Assembly (NCBI GenBank): GCA_001275005.1
Contig: JWZX01003286.1
Location: forward strand, 1 to 63,380
Source: Chrysochromulina tobinii
Taxonomy: Eukaryota > Haptophyta > Prymnesiales > Chrysochromulinaceae
Length of the DNA stretch: 63,380 bases
Direction of reading: 5' to 3'
The notes under the pieces were generated by a model that did not search any database, was not told the origin of the DNA, and saw nothing but the letters and a program-made list of their open reading frames with translations. This document shows positions 14,557-60,998 of this stretch, piece after piece (the stretch's first letter is position 1; each line of letters opens with the position of its first letter). The position numbers and the translations under genes are program-made.

Positions 14557-17500
14557 TCAAGCGCCTGCGCGAGCGCATGCACAGCTCACCTCAATGGGCA
14601 CGTCCGCCGTCTTGAGCGCGTTTCTCAGCTTCTCCTCCACGGCCGCTAAGCGCGGATTGGAAGTCGCCCCCCGGCTTACGGCACCCGCACCGACTCGCGA
14701 CCGAAGGCAGTTACGCATGCCAGCCAGAGCCCATGGGTTGTCGGGGAAGAGCTGCAAGTCTTCTTCGTAGACCTTGAGCGCGCGGTCGTAGAGTCCTTGC
14801 TCGGTCAGCAACGCCCCGAGCGTCTGGCGCACCTGATGAGGGAGGGCCATGTGGTCCAACCAGATGCACACAGGAGGGGCATATGATGCAATCCGGATGC
14901 ACTCCGGAGGGCCGCGAGCGTCTGGCGCACCTTAGGAATCATCATATGGCAATCCGTCGCGCAATCCGTCGCAATCAGTCCTCATTACCGACATCAGCCA
15001 TCCGTGCGGCTCGTCATACGGCAGGGCATCAAAGAGGCCAATGCCCCCTTCGAGGGCGCCAAATGCGTCTTCGAAGCTCGGCTCCTCCGCTGCCTCGCTG
15101 TGATTCACACCAAAGTAGCCCGCTGCGCGCAACTCAGCTTCGTCGAAGCCCTGTGGACGAGTGGAGACGATCAGAGGCCAGATAAGTGGCCAGCAGAGGC
15201 CATCAGAGGCCATCAGAGGCCATCAGAGGCCATCAGAGGCCATCAGAGGGGTCGTCGAAGGCCATCAGAGGGGTCGTCGAGGAGGCGCACCGCCAAACGT
15301 GCCTCCTCGAGTGGCACTCGCGCGCCCAAGAAGACGCGAGCGGAGTAGCCGGCCTGCTTGAGGTCATCGTCCGAGTAGCCGTTGGCACGATCCTCGAGAA
15401 GAGAGGCTATCTGGCGCGCCGAGATCTCCGCGGCACGATAGAGCAGCTCACCTTCGAGGGCGCAAACAAAGGGCGAATTAGGTCAATCAGAGGCAATCAG
15501 AGGGCTGATTAGGGCAATCAGAGGCAATCAGAGGCAATTAGGTCAATCAGAGGCGATTAGGTCAATCAGAGGCAATCAGAGGCGATCAGAGGCAATCAGA
15601 GGCAATCAGCTGACCTTCGAGCACGCGCTCCGCAATCGCCGCCATCTGGGTCAGGTCCACATTGTGGTGCTTGCGATCCCCGAACCGGATGGCTGCATTG
15701 CATGCAAGGAACCTTTGCTGCTCCACCTTGGCCTCGGCGAGCGTGTGTGCCAGGGTGGAGCAGCAACTCGGCATCGCCGGCTCCGCGCGCCCTTGTATGG
15801 CAGGTGACTTGGGATCCGCCTTTCTTTTTATGGAAGCGAGTCCCGTCCTCCGTCCCGCCAACACACCATGCGCGAGCCCACGCGCGAAGTGCGAGAAGAG
15901 CGTCTTGGTCACGTAGAGCGAGGGGTCGGTTGGCAGCGGCATGGCGAGGACCTCTTCCCAACAACCAAATCGCACGAGCACCATCAACGGCACGGCGGCG
16001 TACGCTTCAAAGAAGGTGGCGAGCATAGGGTGTGAACGGAGCCGCGCCTCTGTGAACAATTTGTCGATCTCGGCCGCCGCCTCGCGCGCCGTCGCCTGGT
16101 TGCCCGCGTACCTGATGAGGGAATCCAACCCACGCGCTCGATGAGGGAGGCAATCCCGTGCAATCCGAGGGCCCTAATGAGGGAGGCAATCCCGAGCAAT
16201 CCGAGGGCCCTCCGCCCACGTACATGGCCGCCCACACGCAGAATTCGAGGTTGTGCACCAAGTAGCCCGTGTAGATCGAGAAGCGCTCGGGAGAGCGCGC
16301 GAGTAGCGCGAGGTCGGCCTTGTACCTGATGAGGGAGGGCAATCGCTGACCATCCATGGCAATCAGTAGTCATCAGTGCGCGAGCAGCCAAGGTTGGTCT
16401 TGTACCCGAGGACGTTACAGCGCATCGCCATCAGTGGCCATCAGTGGCCATCATTGGTCTCAATGCCTTGTACCCGAGGACGTTACAGCGCATCGCTTGC
16501 TCATAGTTGCCCACTTGGATGTCCAGATGGGTGGGCATGTGCACCAGGTGCCCTGCACCGGTAGCGTCTCCACGACGGACGACTTCGGCCGCACGCCAAT
16601 CAAAGGCGCTCACCTGCAATCAGCCGGGGGGTCAGTCAGCGGGGTCAGTCCATGTGGCAATCAGTCCCATTCAAAGGCGCTCACCTGCAATCAGCCGAGG
16701 GTCAGCCGGGGGCAGTCAATGTGGCAGTCAGTCCCATTCAAAGGCGCTCACCGGCCCCATCTCGTTCAGATGGATCTTGAGGTGGCAGAGCCAGACGTGC
16801 TCGAGACATGCGCCAAGGCCGCGGTCGATGGCGTCCTTCGCGCGCAGTCCAATCGGCTTGAGCTTCTTGTCCGCAGAGTACCTAGCGGACAGGTGCACAG
16901 AGAGGTCATCAGGGGTCATCAGGGGTCATCAGGGGTCATCAGGGGTCATCAGGGGTCATCAGAGGTCATCAGAGGCCATCAGAGGCCATCAGAGGCCATC
17001 TGCCCGCAGAGAGGCACTCAGGGCAGAAGAAGACCGGTGAGGGTTCGTCACGCCGGCTGTGTACCAGTTAGGCGTCGCCACGCCAGCGTTCTTCGTGTAC
17101 AGATCCCAAGGGGCCAGGCACATGCAGGCCTCTGCATAAATGGCCTGCACGTCCGCATCGCGCGGGTACGCGTCGGCCACTTGCGCCATCGCGGCCATGT
17201 AGCGCTCCTGTAGTTGCGGCGTCGTATCGAGCGGCGGGTACTCGTACCGCGTGGCGAGAGCCTCAATGAGTGCTCGCTCGCGCGCTGTGCACGGCTTGCC
17301 ACCATCAAGGAGCGCGAGCGCGGTCTGGATCGCCTTGACGGCCACATTGAGGCTCGGGTAGCCCTCGGGCTGCGCGGCGACCGCGAAGTAGCCCGACTGC
17401 GCGCTGAAATTGTAGTCGGGACCGTGGGCAAGTGCCAGGCCCCAGTGCCCCATGGCGCAGTCCGCGTCTGCCACGATCGCACTTGAGAAGCAGAAAGCCG

Positions 17501-19249: not shown

Positions 19250-21618
19250 TCACCCATGCACTACGCCCGCCCTCACGAGCGAGCGCACCCACCCGTCGCC
19301 CGCAGGCCTGCTGTCCTCAATGGGCCCGTTGCGCAAGATGGCGGCGCACGGGCCGCAGACACGCCGCACCGCCGCGTCGTCCCAGCGAGCGTCCGACTCG
19401 CGCAGCGGTGCGCCCCACACATGACGCTGCCGGCGCACGGCCACGTGCCGGATCGGGTTCGCCAGTCGGGCCAGGGGAAGCCAACGCTCGCACAGCGCGC
19501 ACCTGATGAACGGGGCAATCAGCATGCAATCAGGGAGGCAATCAGCATGCAATCAGGTAGGCCAGGGGAAGCCAACGCTCGCACAGCGCGCACCTGATGA
19601 ACGGGGCAATCAGCATGCAATCAGGGAGGCAATCAGCATGCAATCAGGGAGGCCAGGGGGAGCCAACGCTCGCACAGCGCGCACTCATCAAACTCCCGCG
19701 CTCCTCTTCCAACCAGACTCCCCACAGGGTTCCCCACAGGGCTGGGGTCTCGGCGAGCTCCAATGACGCTCGGCACGGCGCCATCGCCGCTCGGCACGGC
19801 GCAATACGGGGATGGCGGCCGCGCCCTAAACGGGGATGGCGGCCGCACGGCGCTCCACGGGGATGACGGCCGGCACGCTGTCCCAGTGGTGCTCGAGACG
19901 GCGCTCGTAACGGCAGGCGTCCCGTAAGACTCCCCAGTGGCGCCCGGCACGGCGCCCGCGAAGGCGCTCGTAACGGCGCTCCACGGTCCAGACGTACCGG
20001 CACCCCTCGCACGACTGACGAAACTTGCCGAGGGCGCTCCAGTGCTGCGGTCGGTCGCGCGCTGTGTCGAGCGGCTCTCCGGCGTGCTGCTGCTGGCATG
20101 GGGCAGCGCCGCCCCAGCGCCGCCTGTAGCCGGAGCGCGGACTGCATGCAGAACCGGGGAGGCGTCGTCGCCACCCCAGCCGCCGCCGCCACCCCAGCCA
20201 TAGCCGCTACCAAAGCTGTCGCCGCCACCAAGGCTGTCGCCGCCACCAAAGCTGTCGCCGCCACCCCAGCCGCCGCCGCTGCCCCAGCCGCCGCTCTCCG
20301 CTCGAGGCGTGCACACCGCTTCTCGCGTCGGCGCGACGCGCGTGGACGCCGTCCCGGGCGTCTGCGCCGTCCCGGGCGTCTGCGCCGTCCCGGGCGTTCG
20401 CGCCGTCCCGGGCATGGGCGCCGTCCCGGGCATGGGCGCCATCCCGGGCACATGCGGCTCCTCCTCCCAGTACCGGCGACGAAGCCCGGAGATCGCTGCC
20501 AGATGATCCTCGCGACGAAGCCCGGAGATCGCTGCCAGATGATCCTCGAGCTGGGCGCCGTGCCGGGCGATCCCGAGGGAGTCGGCGAGCCCTGCCGCAA
20601 GGGCGCGCTCAGAGTCCGCGGGCGTGCGCGCGAACGGAGTCGCCCGGCACGGCGCCGCTATGCCAGCGAGGAGGGGGCCAGCGACCGCTCCGCCGCCGTG
20701 GACGGCTGCGGCGAGCAGCGGGCTGCCGTTGCAGCTGTTGCTCCGCTGGCGCCGCACCGCCGCCAGTAGGGCCGAAAGGCTGCCCTCGGCCGCCGCGTCG
20801 GCCCACGCCGCCACTGCCCGATCGGCAGCCGCCTCTGCCCAGGAAGCGAGCACCTCGCCCGTGTGGGCGACATGTTGGGCGACCTCGCCCTCGCCCTCAA
20901 CGCCCTTGATCTCCAAGCGCGCCCTGTCGACCGCCTGCTCAAAGGCATCGAGCGCCTGCCAGTGCACCTCCTCCTGCTCGCGCCGCTGCTGCCAGCTCGA
21001 CAGCCGCGCGGCTCGCATCGAAATCTCCGGAGTCGAGGTGGAGCGCAGCCACGGGCGCCACGGTGCGCCCTCCCGCTGGAGAGCGCTCTCGGTCACCGCG
21101 GCCCAGTACGCGCCGTGCTGAGCACCGAGTTCGTGCTCGAGCATCTGCACCCGCCAATGGCGCGCGGACGCGGGCCGAGCACTGGAGCCCGTCACGACGA
21201 AGCGCTCCCGACGACGTTGCTTGGGGCTCGTGGAGACTGCGGCCGAGGCTGCGGCACGTGCGCACGTCGGCGGCCAGGGATCGCGCTCAGCCTCTTCTGC
21301 GGAAGACCCGTCGCCGCGTCCTGCTTTTGCCGAATGGCGCGTGCCCAGGTGTGCAGCCACCCACGCCCGCGCGGTCGGCATCGAATACATTTTCTCCGCG
21401 TGCAGTGCAGAGCGGCATCCGCTCTGCGACATCTCAGCTCGTCCCACGAGGTATGCGTCCATGGTCGCGTGCCGCTGCCGTGCGAGGTCGGCGCGTTTGA
21501 TGTGATCCTCGTGTCGCGCGCGCCGAGCACTCTGAGACCCGCTCATTCTCGCCCGGTCCGGCTTCTGATCCTCTTGCATGTGTAGAGCCACCCTTTTTCC
21601 GTTACGTGTGTGAATCAT
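19250..21618 (-). CDS. Low-complexity protein with a C-terminal CxxC pair, 2 exons
   Basis: Exon 1 is 21618-19685 and exon 2 is 19502-19250, joined in phase 2, giving 728 residues. The N-terminal half is Arg/Ala-rich with helical stretches (SWQQRREQEEVHWQALDAFE). The middle holds Met/Thr-Pro-Gly-Thr-Ala repeats and Gly/Trp-rich repeats (GGGDSFGGGDSLGGGDSFG). The C-terminus has two CxxC pairs, ECALCERWLPLA and VCGPCAAIL, about 55 residues apart, spaced like a small zinc-binding module. I do not recognise the family. The junction falls in the first CxxC motif, where the exon edge is present three times (next entry). Confidence 0.6.
19468..19684 (-). repeat. Two-plus copies of a 91-bp tandem repeat spanning intron and exon edge
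   Basis: The segment coding for CALCERWLPLA is present three times at a 91-bp period (plus-strand CCAGGGG at 19471, 19562 and 19653). Each of the two upstream copies is followed by CTGATTGCATGCTGATTGCC filler and TTCATCAG. The first copy supplies the 5' splice site (GATGA|GTGCGC) and the last starts exon 2 (TTCATCAG|GTGCGC). Confidence 0.93.
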
Positions 21619-23278: not shown

Positions 23279-23444
23279 CATCTGGCCGACTCAGATCGTC
23301 GACCGACACACGTAGACAAGACATTGACCGATTTTGACCGATACAGACGTCTACACATGATCATCTGGCCGACTCAGATCGTCGACCGACACACGTAGAC
23401 AAGACATTGACCGATTTTGACCGATACAGACGTCTACACATGAT
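23279..23444. repeat. 83-bp perfect direct repeat in intergenic DNA
   Basis: The block beginning CATCTGGCCGACTCAGATCG is present twice head to tail (23279 and 23362) with no difference that I can see. It lies between the SAM carrier 5' end and the purple acid phosphatase 3' end. No gene is evident in 23060-23538. Confidence 0.93.
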
Positions 23445-23538: not shown

Positions 23539-25658
23539 TCACGCGGGGGCGCTTGTGCTGCGAGCCTCCTTACAAACCTGCCTATTCCGCACCACCCACG
23601 CGTCGTCCAGCACAGCAGAGTCATTGTTACGCGTCCACGTGAGGCGCATGTGAGTGCAGTTCAGCGCGTCCACCACGTAGAACCCACAGCTGCCCACGCC
23701 GCTCCATGCCACCAGACCCGTCTTGTTGTTCACGGCGGTGGGCTCTAGCATGGCGCCGGCTGAGCCGCTGATGATGTACACGGGCGCGTCCTCCGTGACC
23801 TTGTACTTGTACACGGGGGGCGTGCGCTGAGACTGGTGGATGTGCCCGTTGGCCACGAGGTCGACCTTGTACTTGTAAAATAGGTCCTCCATCCACGCCA
23901 GGTAGCCGTCCTGCAACGGCTGTTCAGCACCCGTGAGGGAGTACACTTCCCTGTGGAACGTGACCACCAGCCACGGCGTCAACGTGCGGTCCACCGCCGC
24001 CAACGCGCCCTCTAAGAACGCGCGCTGGGGTGAGCCCGGCGCCACGCTGTGTTCTGAGGACAGCATCACGACGCTCACGGAGCCTGTGGAGAAGGCGTAC
24101 CAAAAGATCTTGTTCCCATTGGCGGGCGCGCGGAAGCGTCGCTCCGTGCCGACGCCGCACTCGCCTAGCGAGTCCACGTCACCATCGAACCACGACGGCA
24201 TGTCCCTGTGAACGCCGCCGGACACGCCGGACGGGTCGTTCGGGCTAGGATACCTGTAGTCGTACTCGTGGTTGCCCACGCTGACCATGTACGGCACACG
24301 CGAGCCCACGCGCCCCATCATGCTCATCCACGCGTCCCACAAGAAGATGGCGCCCTTTGCGTACCCCAGGTCGCCAAAGTGCAGAACAAAGTCGAGGGGC
24401 TCTCCCGCGTCGATGCGTGCGCGCAGCCGCTGGGCGGTGCCAACGGCGCCCGGCCCGCCATCGGGAGTGTCCTTGTGCGTGTCGTAGGTGAGGGTATACC
24501 CTGTCACGCTCATATCCCCAAATGCGGCAAAGGTGGTCCTCGCGGCGGGCGAGAGCGTTGCGCCTGTGACAAAGGTGATTTCGTCACCCGCAAACTCGCC
24601 AGCCACAGCGCGCGCGTAGTAGCGTGTCGAGGGCGCCAGGCCCCGTATGGTGGCGTGGTGAAACACGCCCGGCCACTGCCAAAAGTCCACCGACGTGGTG
24701 TTTGCGGGCGCGTTGCACAGGTCCGCCGCGCCGTACGTGGTAGACTCAATGTCGGTGGCGTTAAACGAGTACATCCCCGGCACGGTGCCCACCATCACGC
24801 TCACGTACCCTCCGTCCCCGTACATGCTGGAATTGGTCGTGAAGCTCACTATCATCGAGTGCTGCGTGTCCTCGCCGCCGTACGCAACGTGCGTGTGGAA
24901 GGGGTGCGTGGCCCAAGGCAGTCCCGCCCACGTCAGCGGCGCGCTCACACCGAGCGTCTCCCCCGAAGGCCACAGCGGCTGCTTCCCACGATAATATCGG
25001 AATTCGTTGTCGCAGCGCGAACGGAAAATGGTAAAGTTGTAGGCGCCTGCGCCGGACGCCCATCCCTTGAAAAAGTCCACCGGCGCGTACTCGATGTAGT
25101 CCTCGATTGGACTTCCCACACACACTTGCCCCACCCAGTCGGTGGTCTGGTTCACGGCGCCGGTCTCGAATTTCCAGGTCACGGTGACGTTGGCCGGGTC
25201 CGACGTGAGCGGCGTGGAGGGGGTTATAGCAATGCTGACCGCCGGCACCACGGGCAGCGCGGATGGTTTTGCAAAGCCGTCAAAGCCATCCGCCTTCACG
25301 AACCCGCAGTCCACGTTGCGCTTGTAGTAGCCGCTGCCGGTGTCACACGTGGGGCCGTCGCCGCACTTGAAGGAAAAGCCCGCGCAGCTTGCGTTGGCGC
25401 AGCAAACTGCCTGCGCGGAGGCCAGCGCGAGCCCAGAAAATGAGCCCAAGTTGCCCGCGGCGCCGCCGCATGCCTCCCAGTAGCCGCCCGCGGAGCGAGC
25501 GAGGTTGCACGCGCCGCCTCCTGAGCGGGTGAGAGCGGGCGCGGCGGCGAGCTCCGACCGCAGGGTGGCGCGGCGTGCGAGCGCGGCAGCGCCGTCGTGA
25601 AGGCCGCCCAACGAGCGGCGTTCGTGGGCATTGCGAGGGACAGGATCATGAACAACAT
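23539..25658 (-). CDS. Secreted purple acid phosphatase with N-terminal Apple/PAN-like module
   Basis: The frame from about 25611 to the stop at 23539 (690 codons) carries all five metallophosphoesterase motifs of purple acid phosphatases: FGDMSVTGY, LHFGDLGYAKG, SVGNHEYDY, VVTFHREVYS and VANGHIHQSQR. These would bind the Fe-metal centre and cleave phosphate monoesters. Before the catalytic domain come a fibronectin-like region and a Cys-rich stretch (VCCANASCAGFSFKCGDGPT) like a PAN/Apple module. The frame has no ATG near its start. A good signal peptide (MLFMILSLAMPTNAA) begins at 25658 but in another frame, so an indel or a small unrecognised intron lies between about 25520 and 25611. It probably scavenges phosphate from organic P outside the cell. 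Confidence 0.85.
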
Positions 25659-32813: not shown

Positions 32814-35306
32814 ATGTTGGCGGGCTCTGCCGCGGACGCGACGGCCGCGGACGCGACGGCACCGGACGCGACGCTGGTGGACGCGACACTGGGGGACGTG
32901 ACGCTTGCGGGCGCCACGTGCATAGAGGTCAACATAGAGGACAAGCTGTGCATCATCTGCATGGCGGAGCCGCGGGCCGTGCGCTTTGCACCTTGCGGGC
33001 ACGCCAATTCGTGCGAGGAGTGCTGCCTCAAGCTGATCCAGCACTCGCTGCGCAAGAGGCTCCAGTGCCCGGAGTGCAAGCAGACCATCGAGCAGATCGA
33101 GAGCCAGAGGAGGCTTGCGGCGAGCGACACGCCGATCGCCCGCCAGGCCCAGCTTCACCGCCGTCTCCTCGAGCGCCGATCTCGTCACGATCGACGAGTA
33201 TCTCGAGGCGGAGCTCGCCTCGAGCGACTCGGCGCGCGCGGCGCTCGCGCAGCGGGCCAAGGAGCACTGGACCGAGGCGCTCAACCCGAGCGAGCTGCCA
33301 TGGCCGACGGCGCTCTCGGGCGCTGCGGGCCTGATGTTGCCGTTGCGCCCCTGGCCGGTGGCGCGCTGGATGACGGTGGTGCTCGCGCTCGCGCTGATGG
33401 GCGCGTACGTGTGGGGCTGCGTGGCCGTCTTCCTCGCGTCGGACGACTTTGAAGAGTATCTGCGCAAGCACAAGTTCGACCTAAAGGTGACGCAGGTAGA
33501 AGGCTTTGCGGGTCCGGTGACTGCGCTCATCATCCATGGGCAGCGCTGCGGCCTCAAGTTCACGCCTTGCCTCCAGGTGCTGCCCGACCCGACGGCGCAC
33601 CAGCGCTGGTGGGGCCTGGTGCCAGAGAACGTCGTCGGGCAGGTGACCTCGGGCGTGGACGTGCTGCGCCAAACTCGCAAGGGTCTCTTCTACCTCACGT
33701 TGATCATGGGCTTGTCGGCGGTGGCGCAGCCCCTCATCTCGGCGTGCCGCAACAAGCCGCAGGTGATGCATGCACTCGGTTGGCTCCTTTGAGTGGCCAC
33801 TGATTGCATATGATTGCATCTGATTGCATCTGATTGCATCTGATTGCCCCCCTCATTTGGCCACGTGCCCAGATGGTGGGCGAGTTGAGCAACGCAGGCA
33901 TCCACGCGATGGCGGGCATGGCGCTGATGGCTTCCTTATATGGCATGTTCTGGGACCGCGAGCACAACCTGGTGATCATCAACTACGTGCCCGGCGCCGG
34001 GTACGCGTGGTTCATTATATGGATGCTCATCGTGTGCCTACTCCTCGTAACGGCATTTCTCAAGAGGAGCTGGACTGCCCTCCTCGGCTTCGTCACGTGC
34101 GATCTCCCTTGATTGCCACTAATGAGCTGGACTGCCCTCCTCGGCTTCGTCACGTGCGATCTCCCTTGATTGCCACTAATGAGCTGGACTGCCCACCTCG
34201 GCTTCGTCACGTGCGTGCTGTTCCTCTGATGACCACTGCGGAGCTCTGATGGCCTCTTGATTGACACTGATGACCTCTGATGACTCCTCCTCGGCTTCGT
34301 CAGCGCGACGCTCTATTGGCTCTTCTGGCTGATGATCCCTCTACTCGGGTACACGTGGTTCTTTGCGTGGAAGTTCGTCGATACCGTCGCCGCGCAAGAG
34401 GCGCAAATCGAGCACGGCGAGCTCAGGCATGCCCGATGGATGGCGATTGGATAGCGATTGATATCGATTGATGACTGCGAGCTCAGGCATATTCGTATGC
34501 CATTCTCGACCAGCACCACCGGCTCGAGTGCGATTGATTGAGACTGATTGCCCCCTCCTCTCCGCTCGCAGGCATATGCCCTTCTCGGAGGTGTGTGATG
34601 ACCTCTGATGATGACCTCTGATTGCGTCCCTCATCAGGCATATGCCCTTCTCGGCCGACGCCGCCGCGCGCCTCGGCCCCCCCTTCGCCCTGTGTGCGTA
34701 CCTCGGGTTCACTTGCTGGGCGGGCGCGTTGGTCGTCTCGATCCTCTCGTACATGCGACACCTCACGCTGCTCCAGACCGACGACCAGTACAGGCAGGCC
34801 GTCTTCCTCGATGCGATGCGGGTGAGGCATGCTCTCGACGCCTGTAAACTTGCCTGCCTGCATGCACTCGAGCAGGCATGCACTCGAGGCATGCATGTCT
34901 GAGGACACGCGGATCGCTGGCTGCCCTATATAGGACACATAGGGCATGCATGCATGTCTGAGGACACGCGGATCGCTGGCTGCCCTCAGATTGCGGTTGA
35001 TTGCGACTGATTGCGGCTGATTGCGATTGATTGCGATGGATTCGATTGATTGCGACTGATTGCGACTGATTGCGACTGATTGTGACTGATGCCCCCCCTC
35101 ATTCTCTCCGCTCGCAGGCGCGCAGTGGCGCCCCGCAGGGGCAGCAAGTCATCACGCTGATGGCCGTGCGGGAGATCCAACGGGAGATTCAACGGCAGAG
35201 CGAGCGGCGGGCAGCGGCGGCGGCGGTGAGCCGCGGCGGTGTGTATGAGAGGCTCGGCACGCCGAATGACGCACCGAGCGGCGGCGGCCATTCCGAACTC
35301 GTCTAG
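32814..35306 (+). CDS. RING-finger multi-membrane protein, 6 exons with a frameshift in exon 1
   Basis: The first part from ATG 32814 has an A/T/D-rich leader and a C3HC4 RING: CIICMAEPRAVRFAPCGHAN, then CEECCLKLI and CPECKQTIE. This is the kind that recruits a ubiquitin-conjugating enzyme. From about 33130-33180 the convincing frame moves to a neighbouring one (DLVTIDEYLEAELASSDSAR, then WMTVVLALALMGAYVWGCVA) with no possible intron between, so an indel is present. Exons are about 32814-33762, 33873-34096, 34304-34426, 34638-34821 and 35118-35306. At least five membrane helices are visible, including HAMAGMALMASLYGMF, FIIWMLIVCLLLVTAF and CWAGALVVSILSYM. Intron 3 appears to be GC-AG. It is probably a membrane E3 ligase. 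Confidence 0.7.
34079..34302 (+). repeat. Exon-edge block repeated four times across intron 2 of the RING gene
   Basis: The sequence around CTCCTCGGCTTCGTCA occurs at 34079 (end of the exon), near 34137, near 34194 (one change) and at 34286 (end of the intron). Between the first three, TTGATTGCCACTAATGAGC filler is repeated. The first copy continues CGTGCG and forms the donor; the last continues GCGCGA and forms the acceptor. Confidence 0.92.
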
Positions 35307-44680: not shown

Positions 44681-47120
44681 TCAGTCGCAGAAGAGCGTAC
44701 AGCTGAGGCCCGCGTCCGGCGGGCACGCGCAGCTCCATCCATGGGATGCAAAGAGCTGCCCACGCACGCGAAGCAGCCGAGCTCGGTTGCGCTGTGTGGC
44801 CGTCTCCGGAGTGGAGAACGGCCAGGGCGCGCCCGAGGCGGAGGCGCGAAACGAGACCGACGAGCCCGCAATCACGAACTCGATTTCGTCCGTCACAACC
44901 GGAAGGCCCAGCGGCCCAGCGGCGAACTGCGCGGTCACACGTCGGGCGCCGTTGGCAGCAGAGGCCACGCGAATCTCAGTGCCTCCCTCGGATCGAAGCG
45001 CCCTTTGGAGCTGAACCGCCGCGGCGTCCGCGCCAAGCGAACTCGGGACTGTCCAGGGCACCATGTACGCGGTGCGCGCCGCCGTGGCCATCGCCCTATC
45101 CGACTGCAGGCAGCCGGGCTCGCTGGGCTTGCACGCACGCGGCGCGATCGAGACGCCCGACACGGCGCTCGCGCTGCCGCCCTGCGCGCCAGCACCGCCC
45201 GACACGGCGCCGCCCGACACGGCGCCCGCCAACAGCGCGGCCGTTGGCGGCGGAGGCGGCGTCATAAAGTAGGCGGGCGGCGCGGGCGGATTGAAGCCGA
45301 AGAGCCCTCCGAGCGCTTCGAACTGCGCCTTGCGTGCGGACTCGAAGTAATTCTTCTCATTCCGATCGGCACGCGCGCGCTGAAGCGACGCTTCGAGGGC
45401 CGCACTCCCGCTCGATGACGCACCTGCATGCAATGAGGGAGGCCATCAGTGGCCATCAGTGGCCATCAGTGGCCATCAGCGGCCATCAGTGGCCATCAGA
45501 GGACGCACCTGCCCAATTAGCGGGCGGAGGCGGTAATCAGTGGCAATCAGTTGGCAATCATTTGCAATCAGAGGAAGTACCTGCCCAATTAGCGGGCGGA
45601 GGCGGCGGCGACGGAGCGAGGCTACTTGAACGCTTTACAGCGAACGCATCGGGGCGCACGCCGAAAAAGGTACCCACGCCCTCCGCACCAGCCCCTGCCC
45701 GGGGCAGTACTGCCGCCGCGTCCAGCGCATCGGCGGCGGGTGGCGGCAGCGGCGGCGGCTGTGAATAGAAGACCGGAGGTGGGAGCGGCGGTCGCAAACC
45801 CAGCATAGCTCCAACGGCTTCGAACTGCGCCTCACGCGCCGCTCGGAAGTAATCAAAGGGCGCCGCCGGCGGCGGCGGAGTGATGTCGCCTGTGACGAAA
45901 GGGGCAGCCGAAAAGTCAGTGGCTCTCAAGTGCAATCAGCTCAAGTGCAATCAGCTCAAGTGCAATCAGCTCAAGTGCAATCAGCTCAAGTGCAATCAGC
46001 TCAAGTGCAATCAGCTCAAGTGCAATCAGCTCAAGTGCAATCAGCTCAAGTGCAATCAGCTCAAGTGCAATCAGCTCAAGCGCAACGCTGGGCCGTCACC
46101 AGCGACAGAAGGGCCACCGAAGAGACCACCAATGGCCTTGAACTGCGCCCGCCGCGCCGCGTCGAAATAGCTCTCGCCCTCACGCCGTGTGTCCACAGGT
46201 GCCATGATCGCCACCGGCGCCGGCGTAGGGGGCGGAGCCGTCGCTGTGGGCACTGGCGTCGCAGCAGGCACTGGCGTCGCAGCAGGCTTCACGGTGAACG
46301 CATCGGGGCGAACGCCGAAAAAGGTACCCACGCCCTCCGCACCGGCCCCTGCCCGGGGCGGTACTCCTGGCACAGCTGTCGCAGCCAAGGGCGGTGGCAC
46401 GACGCGAAAGGAATCAGGTGAAAGGCCGAACAAGGTCGGGCCTTTTGATGTGGCCTGGCCGGGTGGTGTGAAGGTGGGCGGGCTCGCTTCCGGGGCGGCG
46501 GGTGGCGCGGGCCAGCTAGGAGTCGTGAATGTATCCGGCGACAGCCCAAAGAACGTTGGCGGCGATGGCTTGGGTGAGGGAGGTGTTGAGGGAGGTGTCA
46601 CGGGCGGCGGTGCGAGCTTAGGCATCGAGGGCGGTGATGGCAGAGTCAGCGCAGGCGCCGGCGGTGCGGAAAGCGGTGGCGCATGGGGCGGCGGAGGTGG
46701 AAGCGGCACCTGCGCAGGTGGTGCCACTAATGGCACCGTTGCAACCGTGTCGGCCAGGGCAGCCGGCTGCTTCTTGAGAAGAGTCCGAGCGGCGCGCTCC
46801 GAGTCGGCCTGCTCGTCCGCTGCGCGGCGCCGCCTCTCCACATCATCAAGAATGCGCTTGGTGTCTGGCAAGAGCTCGTCTCCGCCAAGATCGCTCAGAT
46901 ACTCGCGCAGCGAGATGCTGGCAAGCAGCTCGATCGGCAGCGACTGCACGACGACCTCGGACGGCGACGCGTGCGCCGGCAGTATAGGTGCGCCAAGCAC
47001 ACCGACAGATGCCGCGGCGGACCTCAGCCACGTCCGTCTAGACAGGCGAGGGTAGCTGAACGCGCTCGCGCCGCGCAAGCTGAGCACGAGCACCGCCAGT
47101 GCCGCGCCGCGCAGCGGCAT
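44681..47120 (-). CDS. Thylakoid-lumen DUF1499 protein with repeated modules, 3 exons
   Basis: Exons are 47120-46100, 45889-45581 and 45423-44681; phases agree and give 690 residues. The N-terminus MPLRGAALAVLVLSLRGASAF is an ER signal with the ASAF plastid-cleavage motif of red secondary plastids. It is followed by a second, twin-arginine lumen signal (SRRTWLRSAAASVGVLGAPI then LPAHA). So the protein should pass into the thylakoid lumen by the Tat route. A long Pro-rich region contains repeats of FFGLSPDTF / FFGVRPDAF. Each exon end or start holds a copy of a module: YFDAARRAQFKAIGGLFG, YFRAAREAQFEAVGAMLG, YFESARKAQFEALGGLFG. The C-terminus (GCLQSDRAMATAARTAYMVP to NRARLLRVRGQL) fits DUF1499. 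The ATG at 47120 is chosen because it gives the signal peptide. Confidence 0.8.
45424..45610 (-). repeat. Exon-edge duplication in intron 2 of the DUF1499 gene
   Basis: On the minus strand, the exon 2 end including CCCGCTAATTGGGCAG is present exactly again in the intron (45510-45535). There it is followed by GTGCGTCCTCTG, close to exon 3's start GTGCGTCATCG. TGATGGCCAC units fill the rest. Confidence 0.92.
45925..46080 (-). repeat. 10 x 15-bp minisatellite in intron 1
   Basis: CTCAAGTGCAATCAG (plus strand) is repeated ten times without change. On the sense strand each unit reads CTGATTGCACTTGAG, with a branch-point-like CTGAT. Confidence 0.97.
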
Positions 47121-48432: not shown

Positions 48433-49749
48433 ATGGCCGCATCTTCAGTTTCTTCACCTGCCGCCTGGTCCTGGCTCGACGACGGCGACCGATGGAAGCC
48501 ATACGAGGGCGCCTTGGCCGCGAGCATCGAGGCAGCCTTCGGGGACGCAAATCGCGGCACGGTGGACCTGCACGCCGTCAGTACAGGAGCGAGAGTTTCA
48601 GGCAGACACAGCTCCACTTACGTCATCAACTTCGACGAAATGATGCAATACAACATGAGCACAAAGTTCGGTCGGCCCGTCCGTCGCGATGTCCCGGCCG
48701 ATCCGGCCGTCGATGGCACGTGGGAGTGGCAGGACACGGACAGCAGCTGGAAGGCGTACCATCCGTCTGCCTGCGGCCAGATCGCCCTCGCCCATCGCGC
48801 GGGCCGCCAAGGCACTCTCCTGTACGCCGGCCGCTGGAACTACTGGGTGGAGTTTAGTCGTTCGGTGCAGATCAACCAGAGCACGCACACCGAGCGGCCC
48901 ATCCGCCACCGCGCCGGAGGGCAGCACGGGTGGATGGCCCTGCGCGGCGCAGTCCAAGGCATCTCTTCCGTATCGGCGAGGGCAGTGTCACATGCAGCTG
49001 GCATAGTGACTACACTAGGCGCCGCACTGGCGCCACAGGCATCCGGCTCGGCGCGCGACCGGCCGCTGCCCTGGCAACTCGAATTTCGTCCAAGCACGAG
49101 CGGCAGCCTCGACCTGGCGTCAGTGACGCATTGGACTGTTCTCGCGCCCGGAGAATGGGCGGCCGGCGCCACTGATCCGGTCATGTTCACCGAGCTGGGC
49201 GAGGACGATGAGGTGGTGGTGCGCCTGCCGTGCTGCACGGCGGCCGTGCCGTGCATCTTCAATAAGTCGACGCTCGAGGCGGCCTTCCGCACGCAGGGGA
49301 AATGCCCGAGCTGCGGCACGGCGTATGGGTTGCCTGGCCCGCAACCCGCGGGCACCATGTCGGCCAAGCTCGGGGCCTTCGACTGTGAGGGCCACCCGGG
49401 TGTAGGGACCATCGAGATCGATTACACCTTCTCCCACGGTATCCAGCTGCCGCAGCATCCGAACCCAGGCATGCCATACTCGGGCACGCATCGTAAGGCT
49501 TACGTGCCCAATGACGCCGACGGGCGGCGCGCGCTACGGCTGCTCGAGGCCGCGTTCATGCAAGGCCAAACCTTCCGGATCGGCAAGTCAGTGACCACGG
49601 GTGAAGAGAACACGACCGTCTGGTGCATCCATCAGAAGACGCGCACCGACGGCGGGCCCACGCGGCACGGGTACCCTGACCCCGAGTTCCTGCAGCGGCT
49701 GCAGAGCGAGTGCGCGGCCGCTAACGTCAGGGGAGCGCTCGAGATCTGA
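48433..49749 (+). CDS. Deltex-type E3 ubiquitin ligase (two WWE domains, RING-like, DTC)
   Basis: An intronless ORF of 438 residues. Two WWE modules come first: AWSWLDDGDRWKPYEGALAA to about residue 78, and GTWEWQDTDSSWKAYHPSAC to about residue 160. A Cys pattern follows (LPCCTAAVPCIFNKSTLEAA, then GKCPSCGTAYG), a short RING-like zinc site. The last ~130 residues are a full Deltex C-terminal domain: GTIEIDYTFSHGIQLPQHPN, PGMPYSGTHRKAYVPND, FRIGKSVTTGEENTTVW and GGPTRHGYPDPEFLQRLQSE. WWE domains bind ADP-ribose-containing chains; DTC domains of animal Deltex bind ADP-ribose/NAD and help modify ubiquitin. So this protein likely links ADP-ribosylation and ubiquitination. Only the domain match is seen; activity is inferred. 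Confidence 0.92.
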   Translation: MAASSVSSPAAWSWLDDGDRWKPYEGALAASIEAAFGDANRGTVDLHAVSTGARVSGRHSSTYVINFDEMMQYNMSTKFGRPVRRDVPADPAVDGTWEWQDTDSSWKAYHPSACGQIALAHRAGRQGTLLYAGRWNYWVEFSRSVQINQSTHTERPIRHRAGGQHGWMALRGAVQGISSVSARAVSHAAGIVTTLGAALAPQASGSARDRPLPWQLEFRPSTSGSLDLASVTHWTVLAPGEWAAGATDPVMFTELGEDDEVVVRLPCCTAAVPCIFNKSTLEAAFRTQGKCPSCGTAYGLPGPQPAGTMSAKLGAFDCEGHPGVGTIEIDYTFSHGIQLPQHPNPGMPYSGTHRKAYVPNDADGRRALRLLEAAFMQGQTFRIGKSVTTGEENTTVWCIHQKTRTDGGPTRHGYPDPEFLQRLQSECAAANVRGALEI

Positions 49750-51577: not shown

Positions 51578-54430
51578 ATGCGCGTTTTATGCTGGCTAAC
51601 GGCAGTAAGCTCCTCGGCACATGCATTTAGTGTCGCGTCCATGCATGGGCGGCGGTCCATGCACACGTATCGTGATCTGAACTCGCATCGAGTCGCCATG
51701 GACGCGGGTGTGCACGACCGAGTGGAGGTGGGTGCTGCTGAGGAGGGTTTTGCGGCCTGGTGGGAGGATTCCACCGAGGAGGTGAGCGATCGCGCCTGCA
51801 CTGTCGAAGGAAAGCTTCCCGATTGGCTCGTCGGGCGGCTCGTCCGCAACGGCCCAGGCCAGTGGCGCTCGGGCGATGGGTCACGAAGCTACTCACACGC
51901 GTTCGACGGGCTTGCAAAGCTGGTGTGCTTTGACGTAGCTGCGGATGGCGTCGTCCGCTTCTCAACGCGCTTCCTGCGCACCGAATGGCACCGGCAGATG
52001 GCGAATGGTAAGATGCCGCCTAGCGTCACAGTCGGGCCTGTGACGCCGGCCTGGAATCCAGTCGAGGGCCTGACGGCCGCACTGACTGGACCGGACTTCG
52101 ACAACGCACCGGTGAACATCCACCGGCTCGGAGGCAGCGACCGGTGGGTAGCGGTGACAGATGCACCCGCGCTGATCGAGTTCGACCCACGGACGCTCGA
52201 GACACGAGGGCGACTCGATGCCAACGCCACGCCGATCGCCGGAGCCTCGCGGTGGTTTGGGCAGGTGTTGCTCGTTACCTTTGATGGCCTCTCATGGCCT
52301 CTGATGACCTCTGATGACCTCTGATGGCCTCTGATGACCTCTGATGGCCTCTGATGGCTTCTGATGGCTTCTTATGACCTCTTCGATTGCCTCTAATGCC
52401 CTTCACTGACTCGGGCAGATCGTGCCCGCCCTCTAATGATCTCCGATTGCCTCAAATGACCTTCGATTGCTTCTAATGACTCGGGCAGATCGTGCCCGGC
52501 CTTGAGGCCTTCTCAACTGCTCATCCGCAACGGCACCCGAAGACGGGAGAGACGCTGAATTATCACCTCGAGCTCCGGCCGGTTGGTGGGCCCATCGCGC
52601 ATATCGTCGCCACGTCCGCGTCCGACAACCACGAGCAGCCCCTCAGCCGTCGCATCATTGGGTCCATCGAGTTCGAAAAGTGTGGGATCAAGGTGTGACT
52701 GTGATCGTGAATGGTTGGCTGTGAATGGCTGGCTGTGGAAGGGTGATTGCCCCAGGGATTCCACACGCCCATCGCCCTCCTAGCGTCGCCGCTGACGCCA
52801 CCTGCTCTCTCGTCTCGTGGGTCTCGTGGGCAAGGGCATACCTTATGTCCACTCTTTCGGCGTGTCGGAGAATTATGTGGTGCGCTTCCCGCTCACTCAT
52901 CACTGATGGCCACTGATGACTTCTCATGACCTCGGATGACCTCTGATGACCTCTGGTGGCGGCCACTGATGAGCTCTGATGAGCTCTGATGAGCTCTGAT
53001 GAGCTCTGAGGATTCTCTGATGAGCTCTGATGGCCTCCCTCATCAGGTACTCGTCCTCTTCCCGCTCACAATCCCCTTCGAGAAGCTTGCCAACGGTAAG
53101 GGCTTCCTGCCTCAGCTCTGATGACCTCTGATGACCTCTGATGACGTCCCTCATCAGGCAAGGGCTTCCTGCCTCAGCTCTGATGAGCTCTGATGACCTC
53201 TATGAGCTCTGATGATCACTCTGACCTCTGATGACCACTCATAACCTTTGATGACCTCTGATGACCTCTGATGACGTCCCTCATCAGGCAAGGGCTTCCT
53301 GCCTCAGCTCGAGTGGGACGCCTCGGCGGGCAGCCAAGTGGTCGTTTGGGACATCCGTGGCAATCCGCTTCGTCAGGCCAAGATTGCAACCTCGTGGCGT
53401 GCGGAGCCGTGCTGGGCGTACCATGTGATCAACGTGTTTGACGAGAACGGACTGATCACGATCGACCTCAATGCGTACCGCGAGCCCCACATCGCAACGG
53501 GGCCGCATGGATTCGCGTATGTTGAGAGCCTCTGATGGCTCCCGAGTGCCTATGATGGCCTCTCTGAGGACCTTTCTGATGACTTCCCTCATCAGGTACC
53601 TCGAAAACATGCAAGGTGGCCCAAGCGCGCTCGCAAAGCAGATACGCGACGGCGGCTACTTGCGCATGCAGGTGACCTCTGACGACCTCTGACGACCTCT
53701 GATGACCTCTGACGACCTCTGACGACCTCTGATGACCTCTGATGACCTCTGATGACCTCTGATGACCTCTGATGACCTCTGATGGCTTCTGATGACCTCT
53801 AATGACCTCTGATGACCTCTGATGGCTGTCTACTTGCACATGCAGGTGAACGACTTCGGCGATCCCACGCCCACACGGAAGGCCTCATGTTCCTGGCTCG
53901 ATATGGTCGATGAGTTAGGGCTCAATTGGACTTTCGAACTCGTGCGCGTGAACGACGCGTACACTGGTCGGCGCCATCGATACGCGTACGGCTTCACGGG
54001 CTTCAATAATCATCAGGGCCCTGGGGGGGGCAACCGGTTTGGCCCCGGCGGCGCGGTGGTCAAGATGGACACGGAGGCCAACCCACCAGCCGGCCCGCCA
54101 CCAAGCTCGATCAAGCCGCGAGTCAAGGGGCTGTTTGAGGGCGAAGAGGCACGAGGAGAGCAGCCCTCAAGGGCCCGAGCCGCCGCCCCTCCCAAGCCAT
54201 CCGTCAGCTGCTGGTCGTCGGCGACCGTCTTCCCTTCGGAGCCCGTGTTCGTGGGTCGCCCGGGTGCATCTGCGGAGGACGACGGCGTGTTACTCTTCCT
54301 CGGGTACGATACGTTGCGCCGAGAGTCGTTCATGGGCGTGCTGGACGCCGCGGACATGAGCGAGCTGGCGCGGGTGCATGCGGGCTCGCGCTGCTGCGTA
54401 TCCTTTCATGGGCAATGGATACCGGCCTGA
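51578..54430 (+). CDS. Carotenoid cleavage oxygenase (RPE65/BCO/CCD family), 7 exons
   Basis: Exons are 51578-52264, 52489-52692, 52835-52879, 53047-53095, 53288-53516, 53596-53671 and 53846-54430; all phases agree and give 624 residues. The four iron-binding His of the family are each in the expected block: TAHPQRHPKTGE (exon 2), IPYVHSFGVSENYVV (exon 3), CWAYHVINVFDENG (exon 5) and SFHGQWIP (exon 7). Other family blocks are WLVGRLVRNGPGQW, HAFDGLAKL and DDGVLLFLGYDTLRRESFMG. The N-terminus is leader-like (MRVLCWLTAVSSSAHAFSVA, again ending in an ASAF-like HAFS), suggesting plastid targeting. It cleaves a double bond in a carotenoid or apocarotenoid. Every intron shows at least a trace of neighbouring exon sequence. 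Confidence 0.93.
53091..53310 (+). repeat. Triplicated exon edge in intron 4 of the carotenoid oxygenase
   Basis: The block AAGGGCTTCCTGCCTCAGCT occurs at 53096, 53158 and 53288 with near-perfect identity. Copy 1 begins GTA and is the donor; copies 2 and 3 begin GCA after CCCTCATCAG. The filler between is TGATGACCTC units. Confidence 0.96.
53672..53845 (+). repeat. Intron 6 minisatellite (TGACGACCTC / TGATGACCTC)
   Basis: About 14 ten-base units fill the intron. Its last 20 bases, ending CTACTTGCACATGCAG, copy the end of exon 6 (CTACTTGCGCATGCAG). Confidence 0.95.
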
Positions 54431-58741: not shown

Positions 58742-60331
58742 ATGACGCGGGCCGTGCTCCTGGCTGTGACCTTGGCTGCACCGCTGCGCGTTCACGGCGC
58801 GCCCGTGGTGACATCGAGCGGCGCGGCGACTGCGCCTCGTTCGTATGCTGTCATCTTCGACGGCGGGTCCACAGGCACTCGCGTCCACGTCTTCTCCTGG
58901 CTGAGCGGCCCGCAAGCCGGGCCAACAATTGACGGCCTGCCGGACGTGCGCGCGGAGCCCGGCGGCCACTTAAAGGTGAAGCCGGGCATCTCAAGCTTCG
59001 AGAGCAACCCCGAGGAGGCGGGCGCCTCCATCCTGCCCCTCATCGAGCTCGCCGAGCGCGTCGTTCCGCGCGAGGAGCACAGCCGCACGCTGGTCATGCT
59101 GCGTGCCACCGCTGGCATGCGCCTCGTCTCGCGCCGGCGCGCGCAGCGCGTCTACGCGTCGCTCTACGAGGCAGTCGCGCGCCGAAACACCTTCACTAGC
59201 ACGCGCCGGCAGCACTTCGGGACGCTCTCGGGCGATGACGAGGGCGTCTTCGGCTGGCTGAGCGCCAACTATCTGCTGCGCCGCTCGGGGCGCATCCCAC
59301 AGATGGGCGCGGTCGGCGCGCTCGACCTCGGCGGCGGCTCCACTCAGATCACGCTGCAGGCACCTCCGAGCTTGCATCTGGATCTCCGCTCGCAGATTGA
59401 CCCTCGACACGCGGGCGATAGCCTCGCGCGGCCGAGCACTCAGCGCGAGCCGTCGCCGCCCTCGGTGGCTCTGCCGAGTGGCGAGGTCTTCGTCTTCACC
59501 CACTCGCACCTAGGCTTTGGCAACAAGGCCGTCCTCGCCTCCCTGACTGAGGCGGAGGCAGCCTCGTGCCTCGCCGCGGGTGTGAATACCAGTTGGGAAC
59601 CCTGTAACCTCACCTCGACCAGCATGCAAGTGCTCACCACGGCGCCTTGCCCCCTTCCCCGCAGGTGTGAATACCAGTTGGGAACCGTGTAACCGCTCGA
59701 GAGACTACCAGCGCTTCCTCCAGCGAGGCGCGAGGCCCATCACGCTGCTGGGCAAGGGATCGTTTGCTCACTGCGACGCGGCCGTGCGCCGACAGGTACG
59801 TTGATTGCCACTGATTGCCATTGATTGCCACTGATTGCCTGTCGGGCACGATGGATTGCCCTTGGGCGCGACGATGCAGGTACGTTGATTGCCACTGATG
59901 ATCGGCCTTGCATGCATGCGCTCACCACGGCGCCTCCCCGAGCGCCCCGATGCCTTGCGCCGACAGCTCGCCACCTTTGATTGCCACTGATGATCTGCCT
60001 TGCATGCAAGTGCTCACTGCGACGCGGCCGTGTGCGGACAGCTCGCCACCTTTGATTGCCACTGATGATCTGCCTTGCATGCATGGGCTCACTGCGACGC
60101 GGCCGTGTGCGGACAGCTCGCCACCTTTGACCGCCAAGGCCAACCAGCGGTGCATGCTCCCATTCCCCACAGCCATGGCCTCGCCCCGCAGCCGCCGCGG
60201 TTCGTGGCGATGAGCCTCTTTTTCTACGTGAAGCACTTCGCGCACGTCGCAGGCCACATCCCTGAGCACCAGCCGAGCGGTGGCGGTGCGGTGGATGCTG
60301 CGGCTGCGTCTGCGTCGGCTGCTGGAGCGGC

Positions 60332-60365
<34 letters not shown>

Positions 60366-60998
60366 AGCTCGAGGAGCACGAGCGCGAGCGCCGCGATGCT
60401 CGAGCAGGTACGTTGATTGCCACTGATGATCTGCCTTGCATGCATGCGCTCACCACGGCGCCTCACCGAGCGCCGCGATGCTCGAGCAGGCGGCCTGCGC
60501 GCTGTGTGACGATCTGACTTGCGTGCATGTGCTCACCACGGCGCTCCCATGCTCGAGCAGGCGGCCCGCGCGCTGTGTGAGTATGACGACGCACGGCTCC
60601 GGACTCTCGTCGGGAAGGATCCGCTCACGACCGAGGATGCTCTGATGTGGCGATGCTTTGACCTGACGTACGCCGCGCGCCTGCTCACCGACGGCTACGG
60701 ATTCGACCCGAACGCTCCCGTCATCGACTTCATGGGCGACGTCGACGGCGTCGAGGTGGAGTGGACGCTAGGAGCGTTGCTCAACGAGCTGATGCTCCTG
60801 GCTGAGGCCAACGGCTTTGCCGGCCACGCTAGCCACGGCGGCAGCGGTGCGGGCGGCGGCTTCGGGGCCTCGAAGGTGCTTGCCTTGCTAGCGGCAGCGC
60901 TGGCCGCGTTCTTTCTCTTGCCACGCGTCTGCGGTGAGACGCGCCGCTTGATCCGTCTCCGAGGCGGAGGGCGCGCTCAGCTGCTCAACAAGTGGTGA
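58742..60998 (+). CDS. GDA1/CD39-family apyrase (NTPDase), 4 exons
   Basis: Exons are 58742-59579, 59665-59795, 60117-60407 and 60561-60998; phases agree and give 565 residues. The signal peptide is MTRAVLLAVTLAAPLRVHG. The apyrase-conserved regions are AVIFDGGSTGTRVHVF (ACR1), MLRATAGMR (ACR2), GDDEGVFGWLSANYL (ACR3) and GALDLGGGSTQITL (ACR4). A poly-Gly run is in exon 3 and one membrane helix at the C-terminus (VLALLAAALAAFFLLPRVC). These enzymes hydrolyse nucleoside di- and triphosphates in the Golgi lumen or outside the cell; the C-terminal anchor suits either. All three introns contain exon-edge copies. ATG 58742 is chosen because it gives the signal peptide. Confidence 0.92.
59580..60560 (+). 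repeat. Exon-edge copies in the three CD39 introns
   Basis: Intron 1 starts with a 30-bp copy (59580) of exon 2's start (59665) with one mismatch; it begins GTGTGAATACCAGTTGGGAA. Intron 2 holds CTCACTGCGACGCGGCCGTG at about 60014 and 60089 besides exon 2 (59767). Intron 3 holds GCGCCGCGATGCTCGAGCAG again near 60471. A second filler type (CTTGCATGCAAGTGCTCAC) recurs between the copies. Confidence 0.94.

Follow-up and report, generated by a model that had tools for sequence, protein, structure and literature searches.

How new introns arise is an old question. Among published sources, mass production is known from introners with short target duplications, and gains by break repair are known as scattered cases. 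Introners leave direct repeats of 3-9 bp and often have inverted ends according to the parts of PMC9860276 used here, and the repeats measure 3-5 nt in Amoebophrya in the excerpts of PMC7789003. In a Cryptococcus population, repeat expansion multiplied an intron (excerpts of PMC2395259). The passages of PMC8355091 available to us describe overhang fill-in that duplicates a target in tandem, and report that TMEJ duplications are larger and show microhomology more often. Those of PMC11782384 give direct repeats of 4-30 bp (mean 11.4) at all 213 introns examined, with repeats of at least 16 bp being 71-86% similar; repeats at every intron are a warning that weak repeats are easily found near introns. 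Among open full-text titles and abstract openings, a body from which subscription papers are mostly absent, we found none on filler such as that described below, or on target duplications this long as a class.

We analysed a 63,380-nt stretch of Chrysochromulina tobinii DNA (the window; contig C2127 of assembly G000, a draft of 53.15 Mb in 2253 contigs). It contains a gene for a carotenoid oxygenase of the RPE65 family (51698..54430, + strand), which we joined by hand from seven exons and six introns. The joined exons encode 584 residues that match PF03055 (RPE65; E = 4.4e-83). Environmental proteins match this product, the best five at 64-68% identity, and all six junctions are gap-free in the alignment to the best relatives (...RWFGQ/IVPGLEAFSTAHPQ..., ...GIK/GIPYVHSFGVSENYV/VLVLFPLTIPFEKLAN/GKGFLPQLEWD..., ...HGFAY/LENMQGG... 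and ...GGYLRMQ/VNDFGDPTPTRKA...). This is homology support for the predicted splicing. Elsewhere the window holds a 147-bp tandem repeat of ~13.6 copies (3598-5601), an 83-bp unit duplicated without mismatch (23279-23444), a frame with WWE and Deltex C-terminal domains (48433-49749, +) and an intron-free purple acid phosphatase frame (23542-25611, -). The 99% match of the phosphatase represents 87 sequences, all from a single source, which suggests that metagenomes often contain this species.

Intron 4 of the oxygenase gene (53096..53287, +; GTAAGG...CATCAG) was placed by protein continuity. The original prediction had described an exon edge present three times, and we found the starts of its ~24-nt copies at 53096, 53158 and 53288 (GTAAGG or GCAAGG). 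Target copy 1 (53095..53118, +; GGTAAGGGCTTCCTGCCTCAGCTC) contains the donor, copy 2 (53157..53180, +; GGCAAGGGCTTCCTGCCTCAGCTC) is intronic, and copy 3 (53287..53310, +) is the start of exon 5, its first G being part of the acceptor CAG. The target GGYAAGGGCTTCCTGCCTCAGCTC thus appears at the donor (GGT...), mid-intron (GGC...) and at the exon 5 start (GGC...). Copy 1 reads GGTAAGGGC... and copies 2 and 3 read GGCAAGGGC..., with a T at the donor where the latter two have C; an exact 20-mer (AAGGGCTTCCTGCCTCAGCT) starts at 53098, 53160 and 53290. The space separating copies 1 and 2 (53119..53156, +; 3' end CCCTCATCA) and that separating copies 2 and 3 (53181..53286, +) both consist of TGATGACCTC-type units closing with GACGTCCCTCATCAG. 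These are TGATKRCCTC-like decamers whose final letters are CCCTCATCAG. The spaces hold filler decamers, as had been claimed, and the proposed layout, with the donor inside the first target copy and the filler end as acceptor, is supported.

Joining 53095 to 53288 gives ...FEKLANGKGFLPQLEWDAS..., and this reading restores GKGFLPQLEWD exactly, as foreseen, and aligns without a gap to the relatives. Intron 4 has the GT-AG ends and the restored reading of a spliceosomal intron. Keeping the intron, or using the acceptor at 53157, reads ...NGKGFLPQL and then stops; the suggested alternative use of the middle acceptor (53157/53158) thus leads to a stop in the computed reading. Copies 2 and 3 each come after a CATCAG filler end, and copy 1 comes after exon sequence. 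The units at 53116..53180 (+) and 53246-53310 agree at all but one of their 65 positions (64/65), which argues that copies 2 and 3 arose by tandem duplication. The original prediction had left open two events or an expansion. The single difference between the 65-nt units favours expansion, and of the two histories the better one has copy 1 marking the original insertion, with a filler end and its exon edge later duplicated in tandem to give copies 2 and 3. The simplest history for intron 4 would be one insertion with target duplication, then one expansion.

The event had also been called recent, and this is supported at the protein level only, where relatives of 64-68% identity and the database protein P0131 cross the site without an intron. 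P0001-P0009 read through it in the alignment of close relatives (P0001 on a contig of 12,924 bases), as do P0130, P0132 and P0133; P0010, P0011 and P0012 end before the site and are uninformative there. P0008, P0009, P0130, P0132 and P0133 look genomic, their readings breaking elsewhere as other introns would cause. P0131 (68 aa, JGI, contig of 1357 bases) has 66 residues equal to the window's reading. Its reading opens with VGK, encoded by the final 9 nt of intron 2 (GTG at 52826), and continues across the positions of introns 3 and 4, neither of which it contains. On a plain reading, P0131 would be genomic DNA of the same species that lacks introns 3 and 4, a candidate intron-less allele; a transcript that keeps intron 2 is a possible alternative. 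At the protein level, P0131 and the relatives are candidates for the intron-free ancestral state. After RQAK (residue 66) P0131 departs from the window's reading, possibly at another intron, and the window has none there. The almost identical proteins P0005 and P0007 differ by an insertion near the intron 6 site, perhaps an allelic or a splicing difference.

The other introns of the gene vary in these features. Intron 6 (53672..53845, +) is filler between target copies at 53656-53675 and 53830-53849 (19/20 identical), and the second copy supplies its acceptor. Intron 1 (52265..52488, +) is filler whose acceptor edge ACTCGGGCAGATCGTGCCCG is present twice (52409 and 52479). Intron 3 (52880..53046, +) is also filler, with a target match of score 12 only (12 nt), a score that 3-4% of mismatched pairs reach. 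Intron 5 (53517..53595, +) is short filler without clear target copies, and intron 2 (52693..52834, +), in whose last 9 nt P0131 starts, has no decamer array. Among the six introns, long target copies were found in introns 4 and 6 only.

We observed filler patterns throughout the genome. The decamer pair TGATKRCCTCTGATKRCCTC has 2041 + 1970 matches (4011) and the acceptor end YCCCTCATCAGG has 1110 + 1205 (2315), compared to 0 and 4, respectively, for the reversed patterns. At 36 exact acceptor ends in the sample described below, the preceding unit is conserved too, and the next base is G in 31 and GT follows in 24. The decamer resembles the branch site and pyrimidine tract of a putative 3' splice signal. 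Filler bodies vary in length and unit order between matches, and the counts are of sequence patterns. As far as patterns show, the filler plan is a genome-wide habit. Acceptor ends also occur at a regular spacing of ~70-77 nt (contig C107 of G000, 2614-2769; also C205, C158, C156 and C172), and given this spacing, units with exon edges may have expanded in many genes. A second type of filler end, CCCTCATTGCATGCAG, replaces CCCTCATCAG before exon edges that start with GT (L021:9548-9652; C33 12611-12808, the L045 piece). A viral carrier was considered and rejected: five viral contigs had one match each to a 20-mer pattern, and a search of viral contigs with P0004 confirmed none for the enzyme. 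The strand of the filler, scored from the codons of the flanks of 50 arrays, was sense in 25 and antisense in 9 by more than 5 units, which was too weak to use.

We surveyed a sample of 283,803 nt of the ~53 Mb for repeat-filler-repeat structures; it is non-random and consists of the window, of twenty 10-kb stretches taken from evenly numbered contigs, and of pieces derived from searches. Of 52 filler arrays, 50 were tested and 2 lay too close to an end. When the 100-nt flank upstream of an array was matched without gaps to the downstream one, the best score was at least 20 in 15 of 50 true pairs, compared to 0.13% of 750 pairs from different loci. Flank matching around filler arrays thus exceeds chance. 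Exon starts were repeated upstream with a score of at least 18 at 10 of 63 testable acceptor-like sites (65 found), some of the 10 being later duplications, and at 0 of 504 controls.

An exhaustive repeat search gave 79 raw rows, of which 50 passed filters for filler density and simplicity and 43 were non-redundant. Six with copies longer than 60 nt or holding at least 2 filler units were removed, which left 37 rows at ~31 places by our own count, under filters chosen after the rows had been seen. Rows overlap at 34067-34302 of the window (four), L008 3396-3625 (three) and C33c 350 (two). Target copies are 14-39 nt long (median 27), identical in 18 of 37 pairs and non-identical in 19, and the filler between them measures 29-232 nt. 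The inserts are thus flanked by direct target repeats, as in staggered-break repair. Direct repeats are common across the sample generally, filler or not, and this counts against a repair origin. Exact non-filler direct repeats of at least 16 nt occur at 166 places, with a spacer that is free of filler motifs in 107 and has few in 29. The spacer holds at least 3 filler motifs at 30 of the 166; among 80-nt windows, 3.7% belong to this class and 82% to the motif-free one (107/166 of the places).

Eight more repeat-filler-repeats are described here from elsewhere in the window. A lossless GT-AG intron is possible at 60385..60490 (+; 24-nt identical copies), 59765..60041 (+; 31-nt copies, 29/31) and 16600..16752 (-; 15-nt identical copies). 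At 45495..45605 (-), 39-nt copies (37/39) have AG/GT within the copy. The place at 19469..19684 (-) has a third copy (34 nt), its donor in copy 1 and the acceptor TTCATCAG. The four rows at 34067..34302 (+) are nested, with copies of 14-35 nt. The 20-nt identical copies at 34569..34654 (+) have no GT at the donor position, and no lossless GT-AG was found for the 30-nt identical copies at 16399..16496 (-). Outside the window, L017:9816-9945 has 34-nt copies (33 identical) with 62 nt of pure filler between them and lacks GT-AG at matching offsets.

If an insertion with target duplication is to leave the message unchanged, donor and acceptor must lie at an equal offset of both copies. We found that 19 of the 37 rows (16 places, own count) permit lossless GT-AG, compared to 2.0 rows on average and at most 6 over 52 shifted control offsets. 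An earlier version limited to offsets inside the copies gave 15/37 (control mean 1.66, maximum 7, 56 offsets). In four rows, intron 4 among them, copy 1 supplies the donor and the filler the acceptor. In eight, including intron 6 (three rows being one place), the acceptor comes from the copy 2 end, and in seven both sites are inside the target (two being one place). Lossless GT-AG was absent from the other 18 of the 37 rows, another point against a repair origin; some of these are probably later duplications inside introns, and the rest are unexplained.

We measured junction microhomology as bases shared with the expected filler continuation, excluding rows with a filler motif in the target ends. 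It was 1.43 nt at the right junction compared to 0.43 nt when permuted (18 rows; 0/2000 permutations) and 0.78 compared to 0.41 nt at the left (16 rows; P = 0.0005); the rows behind this and the splice test are not all independent, a few sharing a junction. A first version that included filler-holding targets gave 1.44 compared to 0.41 (right, 22 rows) and 1.17 compared to 0.51 (left, 20 rows). Intron 4 itself scored high at the left (1.99) and low at the right (0.33, a value computed with the copy from AAGG, 3 nt inside the true target), and the poor right junction counts against repair. The first and last 12 filler positions carry at most 0.23 bits per position (37 rows, splice classes mixed; in the CATCAG class, the choice of search itself fixes the 3' end). 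Microhomology at both junctions and variable ends are signs of end joining, as in staggered-break repair.

These data suggest that intron 4 is a recently gained spliceosomal intron, made when filler was inserted at a widely staggered break by microhomology-guided repair synthesis, a reading to which we assign a probability of roughly 0.58. The gain of intron 4 is well supported; the actual splicing, the break, the polymerase, the source of the filler, a branch-site role for the decamer and the status of P0131 as an intron-less allele are what we infer. In the proposed sequence of events, a widely staggered break (about 15-40 nt) would open an uninterrupted exon, and a polymerase guided by a few shared bases would jump to copy filler from other introns, bringing in tandem decamers (each with a CTGAT resembling a branch site and a pyrimidine run) that end in approximately TGATKRCCTCCCTCATCAG. 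Fill-in of both overhangs would duplicate the target, here ~24 nt of exon, together with the insertion. The first target copy would then provide the donor GT and the filler the acceptor; the protein would be unchanged because splicing removes exactly what the insertion added. A later tandem duplication of filler end and exon edge would give the third copy.

The filler could instead be an introner, that is a non-autonomous DNA transposon family with its own 3' splice site, whose donor comes from an unusually long target duplication. Filler and acceptor end are indeed shared at thousands of places, and the Symbiodinium introners in the passages of PMC9860276 bring a 3' splice site with them, their donor coming from the duplicated target. 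With 2315 matches, the common acceptor end YCCCTCATCAGG has the appearance of a mobile element's fixed terminus, which counts against repair; it is the best argument for mobility, yet also what selection on splicing would preserve. A 7-nt inverted match (CTGATGA/TCATCAG) is present at some array ends, and as a transposon end it was not upheld in the filler-end analysis. We consider an introner unlikely, although worth keeping in view, because the target copies are variable and long (14-39 nt, median 27) against the 3-9 bp of the same passages, fixed or inverted ends are absent over 37 rows (≤0.23 bits), the acceptor of 8 of the 37 rows comes from the target rather than the filler, and the junctions show microhomology. 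Retroposition, in which a spliced-out intron RNA is copied by reverse transcription at a nick in the target, would account for CATCAG-type elements that start variably and stop exactly at the intron 3' end. Long, variable duplications such as those seen here are usual for target-primed insertion. The eight rows that take the acceptor from the target have filler without a fixed 3' end, and we regard this route as improbable.

Alternatively, intron 4 may be old, with filler and exon-edge copies having arisen inside it later by slippage or unequal exchange. Copies 2 and 3 are such a duplication, and excerpts of two papers describe polymorphic introns formed via repeat expansion in Cryptococcus (PMC2395259) and a potato intron made by tandem duplication across an intron-exon border (PMC4974935). 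Such an origin seems quite improbable, as copy 1 is preceded by exon rather than filler, duplication of an edge would not yield one filler between two target copies, and the relatives and P0131 have no intron at the site. We give hardly any credence to an assembly artefact within the repeat. The assembly is a draft of 2253 contigs in which near-identical 65-nt units are easily misassembled, and the copy number inside intron 4 could be wrong; an artefact would not explain a plan found at ~31 places, the copies differing from each other in 19 of the 37 rows, or a protein that is restored when intron 4 is removed.

Insertion by repair at a staggered break shares traits with several described systems, compared here with the published excerpts at hand. 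As with introners (PMC9860276, PMC7789003), related insertions appear to make many introns in one genome, and splice sites come partly from the target duplication with the protein unchanged; unlike them, the copies here are 14-39 nt and the body is a tandem-decamer array of variable length without fixed ends. In intron gain by staggered-break repair, filled-in ends likewise leave direct repeats around an insert that becomes an intron, but the excerpted cases have short repeats and mutually unrelated inserts, whereas here the copies are long and one filler family is shared. AGGT tandem-duplication introns, as excerpted, also draw donor and acceptor from two exon copies at equal offset (as in 7/37 rows here), but there the duplicated exon piece is itself the intron, whereas here 29-232 nt of filler intervene. 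Tandem units that include exon edges recall Cryptococcus (passages of PMC2395259), and repeat expansion of that type is likely the step behind copies 2 and 3; in those passages an intron that is already there is multiplied, and the first one is not produced in this way. The small tandem duplications at staggered breaks in PMC8355091 similarly arise by fill-in of complementary overhangs, and the passages at hand contain neither introns nor shared filler, both present here. Compared to the repeats in the excerpts of PMC11782384, the copies here are longer, nearer to identity and tested against mismatched pairs.

We tentatively suggest, at somewhat less than even odds, that this lineage makes introns wholesale by DNA repair, with microhomology-guided synthesis at widely staggered exon breaks copying tandem units of branch site and pyrimidine tract out of introns already present and duplicating 14-39 nt of exon each time, and that the process is so recent that presence/absence alleles remain (P0131, which lacks introns 3 and 4 of the gene). 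Each product would then bring a 3' splice signal and two exon copies that offer a lossless intron. Many introns of this single genome remain legible, with filler, target copies and splice sites all distinguishable, and about half have identical copies. Duplication length, end variability and junction microhomology let transposition be told from repair synthesis in such a genome. Overall, these introns hint at a population where alleles with and without an intron may occur side by side.
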